A stretch of DNA of 64,000 nt from Pseudooceanicola sp. HF7 (GTDB lineage: Bacteria; Pseudomonadota; Alphaproteobacteria; Rhodobacterales; Rhodobacteraceae). The notes under the pieces were generated by a model. It searched no databases. It was not told where the DNA came from and worked only from the letters and a program-made list of their open reading frames with translations. The DNA lies in assembly GCF_011806405.1 (NCBI RefSeq), contig NZ_JAATOW010000004.1:62001-126000 (forward strand). Direction: 5' to 3'. Positions 1 through 5,792 of the stretch are shown here, in pieces (position 1 is the first letter of the stretch; every line of letters starts with the position of its first letter). Both the position numbers and the translations under genes were made by a program.

Positions 1-606
1 GGCAAGAAGATCGCCACCTCTCCCTTCACCTCTTCCAACGTCTTCCTGCCGCTGGTGCTGGGCGACAACGGGATGAGCGAAGCGGATATCGAGCTGACGA
101 AGGCGGATCCCGGTGCCCTTGGCCCGCTGCTAGTGACCGGCCAGGCCGATGCCATCATCGCCTGGCTCACCGATGTGACGCGCTACACCAACCAAGCGAC
201 GGAAGCGGGCAAGGAAATCGTCTACCTGCCCTGGGCCGACGCCGGCCTGGAACTGTACTCCGCCTCGCTGGTCGGCAATGACGCCTACATGGCCGAGAAC
301 CCCGAGCTCACGAAAGCCTTTGTCGGTGCCTTCAAGAAGTCGCTCGAGTTCGCCTATGAGAACCCCGACCTGGCCGCCGATGCCGTGGCCGCCAACGTGC
401 CCGAACTGACCGCGGAAGACGTGAAGGGCTCTTGGCTGGATGCCTCCAAGCTGGCCTTCAACGAGGTGACAGAGGCCAACGGGCTGGGCGCCTTTGAAGC
501 CGGCCGCGTCGCCGCGACCTGGGAGCGCGTCGCCGCAAGCCAGGGCCTGGACGTCGAAAGCCTTGACCCTGAAACCGCCGTCTCTCGCGATTACCTGACC
601 GAGTAA
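1..606 (+). CDS. ABC transporter substrate-binding protein, NMT1/SsuA-like (5' end cut by window)
   Basis: The frame is open from base 1, so the start and any signal peptide lie upstream; about 201 C-terminal residues are visible. The text fits the NMT1/THI5-SsuA class of periplasmic binding proteins: a TSNVFLPLVLGDNG stretch, then an LVTGQADAIIAWLTD segment typical of the second lobe, and a C-terminal helical part. Members bind small organic solutes such as pyrimidines, sulfonates or nitrate. It is followed 86 bp later by the matching ATPase and permease, so it should be the periplasmic receptor of that importer. The substrate cannot be read from sequence; the downstream amidohydrolase and oxygenases suggest an N-heterocycle (inference). 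Confidence 0.88.
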   Translation, partial: GKKIATSPFTSSNVFLPLVLGDNGMSEADIELTKADPGALGPLLVTGQADAIIAWLTDVTRYTNQATEAGKEIVYLPWADAGLELYSASLVGNDAYMAENPELTKAFVGAFKKSLEFAYENPDLAADAVAANVPELTAEDVKGSWLDASKLAFNEVTEANGLGAFEAGRVAATWERVAASQGLDVESLDPETAVSRDYLTE

Positions 607-692: not shown

Positions 693-1472
693 TTGAGCAC
701 TGAAACCGATGCCATCAGCTTTGCCGATGTCGGCCAGACCTTCCTGACCGACAATGGACCGCTGACCGCCCTGTCGGGTGTGAATGTGAACCTGCGCCGG
801 CACGAGTTCGTCGCCGTCCTTGGCCCCTCGGGCTGCGGCAAATCCACCTTGCTGCGCCTGACCGCCGGCCTGATCAAGCCGACCGAGGGCACCGTTTCCG
901 TCTTCGGGCATCCGGTCAGCCAGCCGCGCGACGATATCGGCATCGTCTTCCAGCAGGCGACCCTGCTGCCCTGGGCCACGGTCGAGGACAACGTGGTCTT
1001 TCCCGCCAAGCACAAGCGGGGCCGCGTCAGTGCCAAGGACCGCGCGCATGCCAGGGAGATCATCGCGACCTGTGGCCTGGCCGGCTTCGAAGAACGGCTG
1101 CCCGGAGAGCTCTCCGGCGGCATGCAGCAGCGCGTAGGCATTGCCCGAGCCCTGTTCCTGAACCCCGATATCCTGCTCATGGATGAGCCTTTCAGCGCGC
1201 TGGACGCCCTAACCCGCGATGCCATGGGCTTCGAGTTGCTGCGCCTTTGGCAGGCCAGCCCCAAGACAGTTCTTTTCATCACCCATTCCATCCCCGAGGC
1301 GGTCATCCTGGCGGATCGCGTGGTGGTCATGTCCGAACGTCCCGGACGCGTGATCGAGGACCTGAAAGTGCCACTTGGACGGCCCCGCGACGAAAGCTCG
1401 CTGCGCTCTGTCGAGATGCAGGATTTCCTGGCCCATCTGCGCGGCCTTCTGATCAAGGACAAGGTGGCCTGA
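693..1472 (+). CDS. ABC transporter ATP-binding protein (SsuB/TauB-like)
   Basis: This 259-aa protein is the cytoplasmic ATPase of the importer. Visible motifs are Walker A GPSGCGKST at 44-52, a Q-loop around FQQ at 86-88, the signature LSGGM at 140-144, Walker B LLMDEP at 161-166 and the switch His at 198 (ITHS). The start is a TTG at 693, preceded by GGGGGAAGAA; no ATG fits the conserved N-terminus. The stop is followed after one base by the permease ATG, which indicates translational coupling. The length and the lack of a C-terminal regulatory domain match the nitrate/sulfonate/taurine class. Confidence 0.95.
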   Translation: MSTETDAISFADVGQTFLTDNGPLTALSGVNVNLRRHEFVAVLGPSGCGKSTLLRLTAGLIKPTEGTVSVFGHPVSQPRDDIGIVFQQATLLPWATVEDNVVFPAKHKRGRVSAKDRAHAREIIATCGLAGFEERLPGELSGGMQQRVGIARALFLNPDILLMDEPFSALDALTRDAMGFELLRLWQASPKTVLFITHSIPEAVILADRVVVMSERPGRVIEDLKVPLGRPRDESSLRSVEMQDFLAHLRGLLIKDKVA

Positions 1473-1473
1473 C

Positions 1474-2319
1474 ATGACAGCCCAAGCCGATATCCCCGCG
1501 GAAAAAGCGCCACCGGCGAAACCAGCCCCTACAGAACGGCTGCCACTGGCAGAGCGGCTGATCCGCACGCCCGTCCTGCTTCCCGCGCTGACGTTCATCC
1601 TGATCCTGCTGCTGTGGGAATTCGGAACCCGCCTTTTCAACGTGCCCAGCTACGTCCTGCCCGCGCCGTCCCGCATCGTGGAAGGCTTCGGTGTCGTGAG
1701 CTTCGGGCGCTGGATGGAACATGTCTGGTCCACCCTGCGCGTGGCGCTACTGGGCTACCTGGTCTCCATCGCCGTGTCGCTGCCGATCGCCGTGGGCCTG
1801 TCCAAGTCCCGCTTCCTGTCCCGGTCGCTCTACCCGCTGCTGGTGGTGATCCAATCCGTGCCGGTCGTTGCCGTGGCCCCGATCATCATCGTGGTCCTGG
1901 GCACCGATGATGCGCCGCGCATCGTGATCACCTTCATGATCTCCTTCTTCCCGCTCGTGGTCTCCATGACCACCGGCCTGATGGCGACCCCGCCGGAGCT
2001 GATCGAACTGTCCCGCTCCCTGCGCGCGCCTGTGCGTCGCGAGATCACCCAGATCCGCCTGCCCTACGCCACGCCTTACATCTTCTCGGGGCTCAAGATC
2101 TCCATCACGCTCAGCGTCATCGGCGCCGTTGTGGCAGAGTTCGTCGCGGCCGAAGTGGGCATCGGTTACTTCATCCAGTTCTCCACCTCCATGTTCCGCC
2201 TGCCGCAGGCCTGGGCCGGGCTGGCCGTGCTGCTGGTGATGAGCCTGGCGCTATTCCAGGCCGTCAACCTGACCCAGAAGTACTTCTTCCCATGGTCGCT
2301 TCCGAAGGACGGCCGCTGA
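1474..2319 (+). CDS. ABC transporter permease (SsuC/TauC-like)
   Basis: This 281-aa inner-membrane protein has about six hydrophobic segments. A BPD_transp_1-type EAA loop is visible around 168-205 (ELIELSRSLRAPVRREITQI, then LPYATPYIFSGLKIS). The N-terminal 35 residues are polar and proline/alanine-rich before the first membrane segment. It starts one base after the ATPase stop, and its own stop overlaps the amidohydrolase ATG (TGATG at 2317-2321), so the transporter and the first enzyme are one transcriptional unit. It forms the membrane channel for the substrate delivered by the binding protein encoded at 1-606. Confidence 0.94.
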   Translation: MTAQADIPAEKAPPAKPAPTERLPLAERLIRTPVLLPALTFILILLLWEFGTRLFNVPSYVLPAPSRIVEGFGVVSFGRWMEHVWSTLRVALLGYLVSIAVSLPIAVGLSKSRFLSRSLYPLLVVIQSVPVVAVAPIIIVVLGTDDAPRIVITFMISFFPLVVSMTTGLMATPPELIELSRSLRAPVRREITQIRLPYATPYIFSGLKISITLSVIGAVVAEFVAAEVGIGYFIQFSTSMFRLPQAWAGLAVLLVMSLALFQAVNLTQKYFFPWSLPKDGR

Positions 2320-3698
2320 TGCTTATCACGAATATCTCTGACTGCCTGACCGGCACGCTTGGCGAAGGGGAGCGCTTCCAAGGGGCGATCCGGATCGAAG
2401 GCCAGCGCATCGCGGAGATGGGTGCGCTGACACCCCGCCCAGGTGAAGACGTGCTGGACGCAAGGGGCTGCGCGGTCATCCCGGGGCTGGTGAACACGCA
2501 CCACCACCTGAACCAGTCGCTGCTAAAGGCGGTCCCCAAGGGCATGAACCTGCCGCTCGATCCCTGGCTGATGCATGTGCCCTACACCTGGTGGCCCCAT
2601 TTCGACGAGGCCACCTATCGCACCGCCGTGCGCGTCGGGCTGGCAGAGCTTGTCCTGACCGGGGCCACCACCGTGGCAGAGCACCATTATGTTTTCGCCG
2701 AAAGCTACGACTACAATCCGTCCGACGTCTTCTTCGAAGAGGCCGGCAAGCTTGGAATCCGTGCGGTCATGGCACGTGGCGGGATGACCCGGGGCCGCGC
2801 CTTCGACGATCCGGCCATCCCCCCCGCCCCCTGCGAAACGCTGGAGACCTTCCTTTCCGAAGCCGAAAAGACGGCCCTCAAATGGGCCGACACCGGTGAG
2901 CTGGCGATGCGCAAGGTAGCCCTTGCCCCCACCACGCCTACCTTCAACGTGACCCCGGAAGAGCTGCGCGAGATCGCCCGCTTCGGCCGCGAAAAAGGCC
3001 TGATGCTGCACGCCCACCTCAGCGAGAACGAGAACTACGCCCGCTTCACGCTGGAGAAATACGGCAAGCGCCCGGTCGAATGGCTGGCGACGCAGGACTG
3101 GCTGGGCAGGGACGTCTGGTTCGCCCATCTGGTGGACCTGGAACCCTTCGAGGTCGACCTGCTGGCCCAGACCGGCACGGGCATGGCGCATTGCCCCAAC
3201 GCCAACGCCCGGCTCGGTTCCGGCGTGGCACCGGCGGATGCCCTGCACGCCAAGGGTGGGAAGGTGTCGCTGGGGGTCGATGGCGCTGCGGCGAACGAGG
3301 CCGCGGACATGGGTGCCCTGCTCTTCTCTGCCTTCACGCTGCACCGTGCCACTAAGGGCGTCGGGTCCGTTAGGGCAGAGCAGGTGCTGCATTGGGCCAG
3401 CGCGGGCGGTGCCAAGGTGCTGGACATGCCCGGTATCGGCACGCTCGCCCCCGGCATGGCCGCCGACCTGGCCATCCTGGACCTGTCCGCCCCCCGCAAC
3501 CTCGGCCTGCATGACCGCGCCCTGGCCCCCGTGATCACCGGCGGTCTGGCCGTGCGCGATCTCTTCGTGGGCGGCAAACGTATCCTGGCCGACGGCAAGC
3601 TGCCCGGCCTCGACCTGGCGGAGCTTGCCGATGAGGCAATGGAAGCCACCGAAACCCTCAAGAGCCGCCAGCACAACACCGTGCTGGAGGCCGTCTGA
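2319..3698 (+). CDS. Amidohydrolase, AtzB / 8-oxoguanine deaminase-like
   Basis: A 459-aa metal-dependent hydrolase of the amidohydrolase superfamily. The metal-binding N-terminal cluster NTHHHLNQS is at about 59-67, followed by conserved LMHVPYTWWP and ATTVAEHHY segments, HAHLSEN at about 235 and GVDGAAANEAADM at about 318, where the Asp is the expected catalytic acid. These resemble the 8-oxoguanine deaminase / hydroxyatrazine N-ethylaminohydrolase branch, which removes an amino or alkylamino group from a purine, pyrimidine or triazine. I chose the ATG at 2319, which overlaps the permease stop, rather than an in-frame ATG 27 bp upstream inside the permease gene. The exact substrate is not known. 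Confidence 0.88.
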   Translation: MLITNISDCLTGTLGEGERFQGAIRIEGQRIAEMGALTPRPGEDVLDARGCAVIPGLVNTHHHLNQSLLKAVPKGMNLPLDPWLMHVPYTWWPHFDEATYRTAVRVGLAELVLTGATTVAEHHYVFAESYDYNPSDVFFEEAGKLGIRAVMARGGMTRGRAFDDPAIPPAPCETLETFLSEAEKTALKWADTGELAMRKVALAPTTPTFNVTPEELREIARFGREKGLMLHAHLSENENYARFTLEKYGKRPVEWLATQDWLGRDVWFAHLVDLEPFEVDLLAQTGTGMAHCPNANARLGSGVAPADALHAKGGKVSLGVDGAAANEAADMGALLFSAFTLHRATKGVGSVRAEQVLHWASAGGAKVLDMPGIGTLAPGMAADLAILDLSAPRNLGLHDRALAPVITGGLAVRDLFVGGKRILADGKLPGLDLAELADEAMEATETLKSRQHNTVLEAV

Positions 3699-3723
3699 TT
3701 ACCACCCGGAGTATAAGCTGGCA

Positions 3724-3739
3724 GCATCCGCCCGGATGC
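3724..3739. repeat. Short perfect hairpin between amidohydrolase and first oxygenase
   Basis: Arms GCATCCG (3724-3730) and CGGATGC (3733-3739) are separated by CC, in the 76-bp gap between the amidohydrolase stop and the oxygenase start. No T-run follows. It may be an RNA-processing or regulatory hairpin; the function is not determinable. Confidence 0.4.
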
Positions 3740-3774
3740 AGGTCATTGCTCCCCAAACTCAAGGAGAGTGTCTC

Positions 3775-4770
3775 ATGACTGACAATGCTTATGACCTGAA
3801 GGAACTGAATGACGAGACCCGCTTCGGCGGCGAGGGAGAGCTTGTCGAACGGGATATCCCGCAAATCGACATGTCCGACTTCTTCAACAGGAAGGAAGAG
3901 ATCACCGAAGCGCTCTGGAAGGCCGCGACGGAAATCGGCTTCTTCCAGCTCTACAACCACGGCATCCCGCAGGAGATCATCGACGAGGCCTTCTGGCTGT
4001 CGGGCGAGTTCTTTGGCCAGCCGACCGAGGTGAAAGAGCAATACCCCCTGAAGCCCGGGACCAACGCGGGCTGGGAATACAAGGCCCAGGTGCGCCCCTC
4101 GACCGGGACAGCGGACCAGAAGGAAAGCTACCAGATCACCCTGCCCCGCATGTCCGGCCTGTGGCCGACGGGCCGCGAGGTGCCGCATTTCAAGGAGGTC
4201 ATGATGGCCTTCGAACGGCACAACTGGGCGCTGGCCATGAAGGTGCTGTCCTGCTTTGCGGACCGGCTGGGCTTTGAACCGGGCTTCTTCACGGAAGGGC
4301 ACGATCCTGAGACCAAGGAATACCAGTCGACTCTGCGGCTTATCCATTATCTTGGCATGGAAGACGCCAAGCCGGAGGACTTCAAGTTCTGGCGCGCCGG
4401 GGCACATACCGACTTTGATTGCCTGACCCTGCTGCACCAGAAACCCGGCCAGGGCGGTCTGCAACTTTGCCCCGGCAAGGACGCCAAGGGCCGCGCCATC
4501 GCCTGGACCGACGTGCCGCCACTGGCCGGCGTGGTCACCTGCAACATCGGCGACATGCTGATGCGCTGGTCCGATGACAAGCTGCAGTCCACGCTTCACC
4601 GGGTCCGGATGCCCAAACCCGAGGAATACTTGGGCCCGCGTTACTCCATGGCTTACTTCGCACAGGCCAACATGGACACGCTGCTGGAGGGCCCTGAGGG
4701 CAAGTACGAGCCGATGACCGGCCATGACTACATCCAGATGCGTCTTGGCGCGAACTTCGCAAAGTCCTGA
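3775..4770 (+). CDS. 2-oxoglutarate/Fe(II)-dependent oxygenase, isopenicillin N synthase-like (first of two)
   Basis: A 331-aa protein of the IPNS-like DIOX_N + 2OG-FeII_Oxy architecture. The N-terminal half carries DIPQIDMSDFF and TEIGFFQLYNHGIP. The Fe(II) facial triad is visible as H211, D213 (GAHTDFD) and H275 (STLHRVR), and the 2-oxoglutarate site as R289-x-S291 (RYS). Such enzymes hydroxylate or demethylate small molecules; thymine 7-hydroxylase belongs to the same fold group. The start at 3775 follows a good AAGGAG site; the frame is open 50 codons further upstream but without a plausible start. It sits 76 bp after the amidohydrolase, so it probably acts in the same pathway. Confidence 0.92.
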   Translation: MTDNAYDLKELNDETRFGGEGELVERDIPQIDMSDFFNRKEEITEALWKAATEIGFFQLYNHGIPQEIIDEAFWLSGEFFGQPTEVKEQYPLKPGTNAGWEYKAQVRPSTGTADQKESYQITLPRMSGLWPTGREVPHFKEVMMAFERHNWALAMKVLSCFADRLGFEPGFFTEGHDPETKEYQSTLRLIHYLGMEDAKPEDFKFWRAGAHTDFDCLTLLHQKPGQGGLQLCPGKDAKGRAIAWTDVPPLAGVVTCNIGDMLMRWSDDKLQSTLHRVRMPKPEEYLGPRYSMAYFAQANMDTLLEGPEGKYEPMTGHDYIQMRLGANFAKS

Positions 4771-4780
4771 CCCAACCACC

Positions 4781-4810
4781 GGGCGGCGCACCTTTGCGCC
4801 GCCCCTTTCC
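4781..4810 (+). terminator. Hairpin between the two oxygenase genes, possible intrinsic (partial) terminator
   Basis: A perfect 10-bp stem GGGCGGCGCA (4781-4790) / TGCGCCGCCC (4795-4804) with a CCTT loop is followed by CTTTCC. It lies 11 bp after the first oxygenase stop. The U-tract is weak, so read-through into the second oxygenase is likely. Its placement argues that the second gene starts at 4830 rather than at the ATG at 4794 inside the stem-loop. Confidence 0.5.
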
Positions 4811-4829
4811 GACAGCGAGCTCTTGTCCC

Positions 4830-5792
4830 ATGTCCAAGTCCCTTCCGATCATCGACGTCTCCGGCCTGGCCTCTTCCGATCCGGTCGCCCGCACGGAGGT
4901 GGGGTCGAAGATCCGAAGTGCCTGCCTTGCCCATGGGTTCTTCTACGTGACCGGCCACGGCATTCCCGACGGGTTGATCCAGGCGGTCATGACCGAGACC
5001 CGGAACCTTTTCGACCTGCCCGAGGAGGCCAAGGATGCGCTGGACAAGTCCCTGTCCCCCTGCAACCGGGGCTATGAGCAGCTGGGCGGGCAAACCCTGC
5101 AGCCGGGCGCCCTGCCCGACCGCAAGGAAGGCTATTACATCGGCGAAGAGCTGACGCCGCGCGATCCACGGGTTACTGCGGGCAAGTTCAATCAGGGGCC
5201 AAACCAATGGCCGCAGGACCTGCCCGGCTTCCGACCGACGATGATGGCTTACTTCTCTGCGCTGAGCACCCTGGGGGAAACGCTCATGCGGGGCATGGCG
5301 CTGTCGCTAGACCTTGAGGAGGGCTACTTTTCAGGGTTCTGCGAACAGCCGCTGGCGACCCTGCGCCTGCTGCACTACCCCCCTGCCCAACCCGATGTGC
5401 CCGAGGAAATGGGCGCCGGTGCCCATACCGATTTCGGCGGGCTGACCATGCTGTTTCAGGACAGTGTCGGTGGCCTGCAGGTCATGGACGAGGATGGTAG
5501 CTGGATCGATGCGCCGCCGATCCCCGGGGCCTTCGTGGTCAACCTGGGCGACATGATCTCTCGCTGGACCAACGATCACTATCGTTCCACCCTGCACCGG
5601 GTCATAAACCGCTCGGGGCGCGAGCGGTATTCGGTGCCGTTCTTCTATTCCGGTTTTCCCGGGCACGAGGTGGCCTGTATCCCGACCTGCCTTGCCGGCG
5701 ATGAGACCCCGAAGTATCCGCCCATCACGGTCGAAGAGCACCTTCGCGCGATGTATGAGCGCACCTACGTGAACGACAAAAAATCCGGGTGA
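4830..5792 (+). CDS. 2-oxoglutarate/Fe(II)-dependent oxygenase, isopenicillin N synthase-like (second of two)
   Basis: A 320-aa paralogue in the same family. It begins MSKSLPIIDVSGL, the usual DIOX_N opening, and has AHGFFYVTGHGIP at about 34-46. The iron ligands are H199, D201 (AHTDFGG) and H256 (STLHRVI), and the 2-oxoglutarate-binding pair is R266-x-S268 (RYS). All catalytic residues are intact, so both oxygenases should be active. The start at 4830 is chosen because the upstream in-frame ATG lies in a strong hairpin. It is the last gene of the plus-strand unit; the next gene is convergent, 16 bp away. Confidence 0.9.
   Translation: MSKSLPIIDVSGLASSDPVARTEVGSKIRSACLAHGFFYVTGHGIPDGLIQAVMTETRNLFDLPEEAKDALDKSLSPCNRGYEQLGGQTLQPGALPDRKEGYYIGEELTPRDPRVTAGKFNQGPNQWPQDLPGFRPTMMAYFSALSTLGETLMRGMALSLDLEEGYFSGFCEQPLATLRLLHYPPAQPDVPEEMGAGAHTDFGGLTMLFQDSVGGLQVMDEDGSWIDAPPIPGAFVVNLGDMISRWTNDHYRSTLHRVINRSGRERYSVPFFYSGFPGHEVACIPTCLAGDETPKYPPITVEEHLRAMYERTYVNDKKSG

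Follow-up and report, generated by a model that had tools for sequence, protein, structure and literature searches.

A xanthine riboswitch-associated importer, amidohydrolase and oxygenase operon in Pseudooceanicola sp. HF7

Xanthine riboswitches were described by Yu and Breaker (2020, PMC7373994), whose text reports that the RNA binds xanthine with a dissociation constant (KD) of about 3.7 µM and urate with one of about 25 µM, and that the aptamer rejects xanthine or uric acid carrying one methyl group on N1, N3 or N7, 9-methyluric acid and, likewise, pyrimidine nucleobases; OFF control was seen in one reporter. The riboswitch neighbors named there are pcbC/IPNS-like dioxygenases, NMT1/tauA transport proteins, PRK12393 amidohydrolases and tadA, and the precise functions of the dioxygenases are stated as not established. 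Isoxanthopterin was purchased for that work, presumably as a test ligand (PMC7373994). Here we analyze a window of 64,000 nucleotides from the alphaproteobacterium Pseudooceanicola sp. HF7 (Rhodobacteraceae; contig NZ_JAATOW010000004.1, positions 62,001 to 126,000), which starts inside the gene for the substrate-binding protein of an NMT1-type ATP-binding cassette (ABC) importer and continues, all on the (+) strand, with genes for the importer ATPase and permease, an amidohydrolase (AH) and two IPNS-like 2-oxoglutarate (2OG) oxygenases, OX1 and OX2 (Table 1). A xanthine riboswitch (RF03054) occupies the 76 bases that separate AH from OX1; it scores above the gathering score of its covariance model and was overlooked in an earlier reading of this DNA from its letters alone (the original prediction). 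The locus belongs to a gene set already known to accompany xanthine riboswitches and has two of these riboswitches within a single gene series, and the operon is probably a xanthine-riboswitch-controlled module that imports, deaminates and oxidizes oxidized purine-like or pteridine rings.

A riboswitch-linked gene set and its conservation

Three matches (E up to 0.1) were reported for the 4.27-Mb genome, of which the aptamer in the AH-OX1 gap scores highest, and no match was found in any of 14 control genomes. The second match (29.4 bits) lies just 5′ of the window, before the binding-protein gene, and weak copies were found with our own model, R1, at the corresponding place before the binding protein in loci L007-L009. 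By hand alignment to the crystal construct of PMC8266621, the window aptamer keeps G10, C11, G35, U40 and A39; in that construct, mutants of G10, C11, G35 and U40 lost binding, and A39 forms a triple with G35 and C11 (PMC8266621). Across 36 aligned copies, at least one change on both sides was seen in 6 of 13 predicted pairs. The copies form two subtypes by position, the importer type reading GAGUAGAAGCGGUCAGG...CGGGACAUUGCUC and the usual OX1 type GGAGUAGAAGCAGUCA...GGUCAUUGCUCC, with exceptions that include L016, L024 and L087. One pair of stem P2a (columns 18/46 of alignment A1) differs steadily between the types: of the 36 copies, 10 have U-U and 5 have G-U, all of them of OX1 type and the window copy among the latter, and importer-type copies have U-A, C-G or U-G. 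The third match in the genome (G000:C36:13487-13532, L106 3487-3532) is sub-threshold at 24.3 bits, and the frames near it were read from their sequences as a RidA-like protein and another ABC importer.

Conservation was followed in 77 AH loci that came from scanning the genomes of bacterial and archaeal species. The scan used short peptide patterns, and since NTHHHLNQ is common to 8-oxoguanine-deaminase-like sequences, the distant loci that it yielded are a biased set. Twenty-three loci were classed as close (53-72% AH identity), among them Rhodobacterales, Hyphomicrobiales, Inquilinus and Granulosicoccus, and 52 as distant (34-41%), with the fragments L073 and L077 in neither set; related genomes were counted separately. 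At identity thresholds of 45% for the binding protein and OX1 and 55% for the ATPase and permease, OX1 lies directly 3′ of AH in 22 of the 23 close loci (the contig ends in L026), the importer is present in 21 (absent from L010 and L017), and a CDA-type deaminase gene in 14. Every close locus carries at least one riboswitch above the Rfam cut-off. With R1 added, a riboswitch is found in the AH-OX1 gap in 20 close loci, before the binding protein in 19 and at both places in 17; that of L017 lies before AH only. R1 was built from the close loci, and the copies found by it alone (before the binding protein, those of L007-L009 and a partial copy in L029; before OX1, that of L027) lay outside its training set. 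In the 52 distant loci, neither OX1 nor the importer was found at these thresholds, nor was a riboswitch (R1, 943,303 bases, E up to 0.1); one of them, L068, has weaker ATPase (45%) and permease (35%) matches together with a CDA gene (52%).

The original prediction had proposed an NMT1-type importer joined by gene overlap to an amidohydrolase and accompanied by two 2OG oxygenases, and this is borne out by the Pfam domains and by a one-base overlap of the permease and AH genes. Its broader idea of a conserved importer, deaminase and oxygenase module, probably for an N-heterocycle, agrees with the close-locus counts for OX1 (22/23) and the importer (21/23). Conservation of the linkage across genomes, the absence of which was to refute the original prediction, holds for the importer, AH and OX1. 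OX2 as a fixed part is not supported, its link to the operon being loose: an OX2 of at least 55% identity lies directly 3′ of OX1 in 4 of the 23 close loci (L007, L008, L009 and L028) and anywhere in the locus in 9, and in the window a strong hairpin separates the two genes. In a separate comparison within the family, an AH of at least 54% identity was present in 8 of the 15 genomes that had the riboswitch and in 0 of the 15 negatives, which under strict filters gave no match with an E of 1e-4 or less. The negatives were the first such genomes listed, minus G747, G751 and the same-genus G927, and the family sample is not wholly fresh, the leaders of three positives, G854, G832 and G971, being identical to those of L013, L085 and L084. 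On a Klebsiella pneumoniae plasmid, p2B17602, a riboswitch is followed by successive genes for a binding protein, an AH (44%) and an OX1 homologue (57%) (L108 7856-7909, 7994-11423), and with this arrangement the module reaches enterobacteria.

The neighborhoods of the riboswitch itself set OX1 apart from the other genes. Sixteen riboswitch matches in 394 family genomes comprise 14 right before an OX1 gene and 2 before a binding protein (the family-neighbor, phylum-sample and second-set surveys relied on a short pattern and not on the covariance model to place the riboswitches). In the stretch examined 5′ of those 14, AH is found in 6, our own genome included, the permease in L154 and neither in 7; distant importer genes lie nearby in L160, L162 and L163. 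Two more distant loci, L165 and L166 (genomes G520 and G587), have the order importer, CDA-type deaminase, riboswitch, OX1, with the CDA-type gene in the place of AH, and on Agrobacterium and Rhizobium plasmids the importer and OX1 carry both riboswitches beside a gene annotated as cytosine deaminase. OX1 and its riboswitch are the constant part of the module within the family, and the deaminases look like interchangeable feeders. Because the riboswitch and OX1 stay when the deaminase is swapped, OX1 probably acts on a deaminated, xanthine-like product.

The sign of control was explored from the leader sequences. Stem P1 (GGAG...CUCC) repeats the GGAG of the Shine-Dalgarno sequence, so that in an opened P1 the CUCC could mask the ribosome site. 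In a first set of OX1 leaders, 13 of 25 gave an ON sign and 0 an OFF sign (L015 left out of 26), against control rates of 28% with shuffled spacers (n = 420), 23% with the GGAG starts of other genes (n = 650) and 8% with importer-type aptamers placed on OX1 starts (n = 375). A second set gave 6 ON and 0 OFF of 26, or 4 of 23 ON from the printed values once L138, L142 and L147, which repeat first-set leaders, are removed; this is no better than the controls, so the OX1-leader riboswitch is not established as an ON switch. Importer leaders gave 0 ON and 2 OFF of 19 in the first set (L007-L009 left out of 22) and 2 ON and 0 OFF of 9 in the second, L145 among them repeating L085, and the lone AH leader (L121/L140) gave an ON sign.

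Enzymes and candidate substrates

AH, a protein of 459 residues, passes the curated cut-off of PRK12393 (NF009059; Table 1), a family that NCBI describes only as "amidohydrolase family protein." Among solved structures it is closest to 2paj, which was deposited under the name "putative cytosine/guanine deaminase." We take 2paj to be the isoxanthopterin deaminase of Hall and coworkers; that enzyme reportedly did not use purines, and a Gln, a Tyr and two Thr residues are said to bind its pterin. Residues Q, Y and TT stand at the aligned places in AH as in 2paj. PMC5270733 cites Hall et al. (2010) as the source for isoxanthopterin and pterin-6-carboxylate activity. The TT pair after beta strand 5 (APTT motif) is found in the window AH, in 23 of 23 close loci, in 2paj and in five plasmid AH genes of 44-60% identity (L084, L085, L089, L108 and L109), and a related plasmid gene carries the annotation "Isoxanthopterin deaminase." In 8-oxoguanine deaminases a Cys stands here (CS motif), and C is also seen in 51 of the 52 distant loci, 3hpa and 7ww2 (L063 was not aligned there). 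The AtzB/8-oxoguanine-deaminase-like assignment first proposed for AH is not supported: the protein scores 390.4 bits against the PRK08203 cut-off of 532 and has T in place of C after beta strand 5, within a TT and not a CS motif. Our best single guess for the AH substrate, held at slightly less than even odds, is isoxanthopterin or a related 7-oxo-pterin. Judging by their listings, papers on isoxanthopterin from shrimp and insects exist.

The genome encodes a separate, true 8-oxoguanine deaminase (contig C15, 668.5 bits). A scan of 10 neighboring frames, 5 of them with a Pfam match (another amidohydrolase, a LysR regulator, a 5-FTHF cyclo-ligase, MgtE and an inositol phosphatase), gave no helpful purine cluster. 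This second deaminase would suit a damage-control role in which the enzymes clear oxidized guanine or pterins and oxidized purines signal stress to the cell instead of food, as would locus L029, where a divergent set comprises an 8-oxoguanine deaminase (659.1 bits vs the cut-off of 532), an OX2 homologue and a CDA gene. We give such a role very little credence, because a dedicated importer overlapping the deaminase gene speaks for scavenging from outside.

Both oxygenases retain the HxD...H iron triad and the RxS 2OG site, as the original prediction had stated. In OX1 these are H211-x-D213 with H275 and R289-x-S291 (P0002 numbering), invariant in 24 aligned OX1 sequences; in OX2, which is 31% identical to OX1, they are H211-x-D213 with H268 and R278-x-S280 (P0003 numbering), invariant in 13 aligned OX2 sequences. 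The nearest solved relative of OX1 is the thymine-7-hydroxylase 5c3p, a remote one at 97 bits, and a predicted OX1 structure had a mean pLDDT (predicted local distance difference test) of 60.9, too low for a fold search. Against the thymine-7-hydroxylase pocket positions given in PMC4787775, OX1 keeps the counterparts of N87, E122, R190, Y217 (F/Y) and F292 and has Q for N294. Keeping five of six positions would fit a flat ring and is not specific, several of these residues being found in 9ovh and 6jyv as well. The likeness would lend itself to a methylated pyrimidine or purine that is deaminated or dealkylated and then oxidized twice in thymine-7-hydroxylase style, the kind of substrate first suggested for this locus, and so would the gene annotated as cytosine deaminase beside the OX1 operons of the Rhizobium and Agrobacterium plasmids. 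We consider a methylated substrate highly improbable all the same: the window operon carries xanthine riboswitches, both rhizobial operons carry them too, the published aptamer rejects pyrimidine nucleobases and N-methylated xanthines and urates (PMC7373994), and the thymine-7-hydroxylase similarity is remote, with Q at the N294 counterpart.

OX2 homologues occur in purine gene clusters, within 8 kb of the urate hydroxylase gene hpxO and, in one record, at this distance from genes for allantoicase and an NCS2 permease too. A gene resembling alpha/beta hydrolases adjoins OX2 in L011 (11833-12576), L013 (2413-3195), L023 (11531-12304), L028 (12478-13209) and L029 (830-1618), and the window is without it; the call was made by scanning L011 and L028 (below curated cut-offs), by clustering with L011 for L013 and L023, and by sequence for L029. 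This gene is possibly a partner enzyme of OX2.

In the module that we favor, the ThiY-like importer would take in an amino-substituted ring, from which AH, judged by its subfamily, would strip the exocyclic amine by metal-dependent hydrolysis, leaving a xanthine-like dioxo ring; OX1 would then oxidize the deaminated ring with Fe(II), O2 and 2OG, and OX2 may be an accessory oxygenase from a purine-linked clade. The riboswitch that precedes the importer and that of the AH-OX1 gap would both read the level of the deaminated or oxidized product, with ligand and sign in the host presumed. For OX1 we commit to a deaminated ring only and to no single compound. The AH subfamily lies on the pterin side, and on the purine side lie the riboswitch ligand, the CDA-type deaminase, the OX2 homologues near hpxO and the stand-alone OX1; the pteridine and plain purine routes are both candidates.

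In the plain purine route, AH and the CDA-type deaminase would turn guanine or isoguanine into xanthine, and OX1, as a 2OG xanthine hydroxylase, would make urate without molybdenum, the riboswitch acting as end-product control. Fungal XanA, of a different 2OG subfamily, is a precedent for 2OG xanthine hydroxylation. The route is consistent with a riboswitch ligand that is xanthine or urate (PMC7373994), with the replacement of AH in L165 and L166 by a CDA-type deaminase (its relative in the window genome resembles guanine deaminase 1wkq among others), with the ability of OX1 and its riboswitch to stand alone, and with OX2 homologues near hpxO and allantoicase. Set against it is xanthine dehydrogenase (TIGR02965), above cut-off in 30 of 30 family genomes tested, 15 riboswitch-positive and 15 riboswitch-negative, so that a role in plain xanthine oxidation is not needed; replacement of xanthine dehydrogenase by OX1 in general was rejected on the same count. 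Moreover, AH has the TT motif of 2paj, an enzyme that reportedly did not use purines, and not the CS motif of 8-oxoguanine deaminases. We regard the plain purine route as rather unlikely.

Several observations weigh against the import, deamination and oxidation module itself, the distribution of xanthine dehydrogenase being one. The riboswitch copy that precedes the importer does not reach the Rfam cut-off (29.4 vs 36 bits), and in the window aptamer the consensus G at crystal position 7 is replaced by U; this U is shared by the OX1 copies of L008, L009 and L016 and by L011. The same-genus genome G927 in the family sample is without a riboswitch, and G587 (L166) also has a divergent riboswitch before a distant AH (36-38%, APTS motif). 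Riboswitch and OX1 occur without a recognized importer or deaminase in L157 and L158 and with only weak ATPase matches in L159 and L161 (at the stand-alone OX1 loci, 10 neighbor frames were identified or tried), and because of these arrangements OX1 may not need an imported substrate. A wider phylum sample has a riboswitch in 17 of 398 genomes; there, riboswitches stand before homologues of OX1, the binding protein, CDA or AH, and 14 pattern matches (repeats included) are followed by no homologue among those searched for.

A more specific chain, which we hold to be improbable, would join pterins to purines: isoxanthopterin would be imported and converted by AH to 7-oxolumazine and by OX1 to tetraoxopteridine, a hypothetical isomerase would contract the ring to xanthine-8-carboxylate and xanthine, and the two riboswitch subtypes would read the xanthine-like flux with different, perhaps opposite, outputs at the importer and the oxygenase. 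Contraction of tetraoxopteridine to xanthine-8-carboxylate and xanthine belongs to an old Alcaligenes pathway.

Layout of the operon and neighboring features

The coordinates of the operon are collected in Table 1.

Table 1. Features of the riboswitch-associated operon, in window coordinates
Feature	Position	Strand	Basis
Substrate-binding protein, NMT1-type ABC importer (C-terminal part)	1..606	+	Pfam NMT1 E 3.3e-19
ABC importer ATPase	693..1472	+	TTG start as listed, later start possible; Pfam ABC_tran E 3.6e-35
ABC importer permease	1474..2319	+	Pfam BPD_transp_1 E 6.1e-25
AH, amidohydrolase of PRK12393 subfamily	2319..3698	+	NF009059 572.7 bits vs cut-off 543; 2paj E 2.8e-116; Pfam Amidohydro_1
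Xanthine riboswitch aptamer (NMT1 motif, RF03054)	3704..3756	+	46.7 bits vs gathering score 36, E 7.9e-9 (1501 bases searched)
OX1 Shine-Dalgarno	3762..3767	+	GGAG in it repeats 5′ strand of riboswitch stem P1 (sequence)
OX1, IPNS-like Fe(II)/2-oxoglutarate oxygenase	3775..4770	+	DIOX_N + 2OG-FeII_Oxy; 5c3p E 9.6e-27
GC-rich hairpin between OX1 and OX2, possible attenuator	4781..4804	+	No T run; minimum free energy of 59-nt gap -25.3 kcal/mol, z -4.18
OX2, second IPNS-like 2-oxoglutarate oxygenase	4830..5792	+	DIOX_N + 2OG-FeII_Oxy; 9ovh E 2.5e-74, 6jyv E 8.8e-66

The binding-protein gene begins 387 bases 5′ of the window (full gene L006 9614-10606). The closest solved chains of its product are 4nmy and 3ix1, the latter a formylaminopyrimidine-binding protein, followed more weakly by sulfonate- and taurine-binding proteins; these relatives, the aminopyrimidine binder 3ix1 among them, would fit a purine or a pterin ring alike. 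The permease stop TGA (2317-2319) overlaps the AH ATG (2319) by the one base noted above, an upstream ATG at 2292 being an alternative AH start, and in L007 and L008 the AH frame likewise begins at most 4 bases from the permease stop. For OX2, the ATG at 4830 is the best start and a TTG at 4794 is possible. The hairpin between OX1 and OX2 was not listed by a terminator scan; similar GC-rich inverted repeats were read by eye between the two genes in L007-L009, and in L028 the two genes overlap.

A gene for a CDA-type deaminase (mechanical frame L006 8675-9460) is found beyond the binding protein on the opposite strand, and because its CDA domain begins near residue 105 of the frame, the true start is probably later. 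The closest solved chains of its product are of the CMP/dCMP-deaminase type, followed by guanine deaminase (1wkq). About 7 kb 5′ of the window is a Guanidine-I riboswitch on the (-) strand (L006 2644-2752, G000:C37:54644-54752; 77.7 bits, cut-off 63), and the frames 3′ of it (L006 1489-2631 and 621-1433) were read as another ABC importer, probably for guanidine.

Comparison with described systems

The claim that the locus belongs to an undescribed pathway stands in part: its gene types were already listed as riboswitch neighbors, and the functions of the dioxygenases were left unset (PMC7373994). A literature search, with subscription papers mostly outside its reach, recognized no characterized pathway with this gene set and found no later function for the riboswitch-linked oxygenases. 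In this locus a xanthine sensor connects one oxygenase to a deaminase whose closest solved relative is taken to be active on isoxanthopterin, an activity that PMC5270733 reports for its group, and the candidates are thereby reduced to a short list of commercially available compounds. Solving the locus would give a function to an oxygenase group left without one by Yu and Breaker (PMC7373994). It may also show how bacteria recycle pterins such as isoxanthopterin.

Among single enzymes, the isoxanthopterin deaminase 2paj has its metal-site motifs, Gln, Tyr and TT pair in common with AH, for which the corresponding activity is predicted, whereas the 8-oxoguanine deaminases of PRK08203 have the same metal-site motifs and differ in having C and not T after beta strand 5. 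Thymine-7-hydroxylase (5c3p) is, like OX1, an IPNS-like 2OG oxygenase, one that acts on a nucleobase, and has most of its pocket residues in common with OX1; OX1 is unlike it in the low score of 97 bits and in the Q at N294. As a set, the genes correspond to the regulon of Yu and Breaker (PMC7373994), which has the same RNA family, an NMT1/tauA transporter, a pcbC-like dioxygenase, PRK12393 and a tadA-like deaminase. The passages of that paper covered by the comparison mention genes in series and a divergent pair, and the two-riboswitch layout was not seen in them; here, two riboswitches of two subtypes stand in one same-strand gene series, one of them directly before an oxygenase gene.

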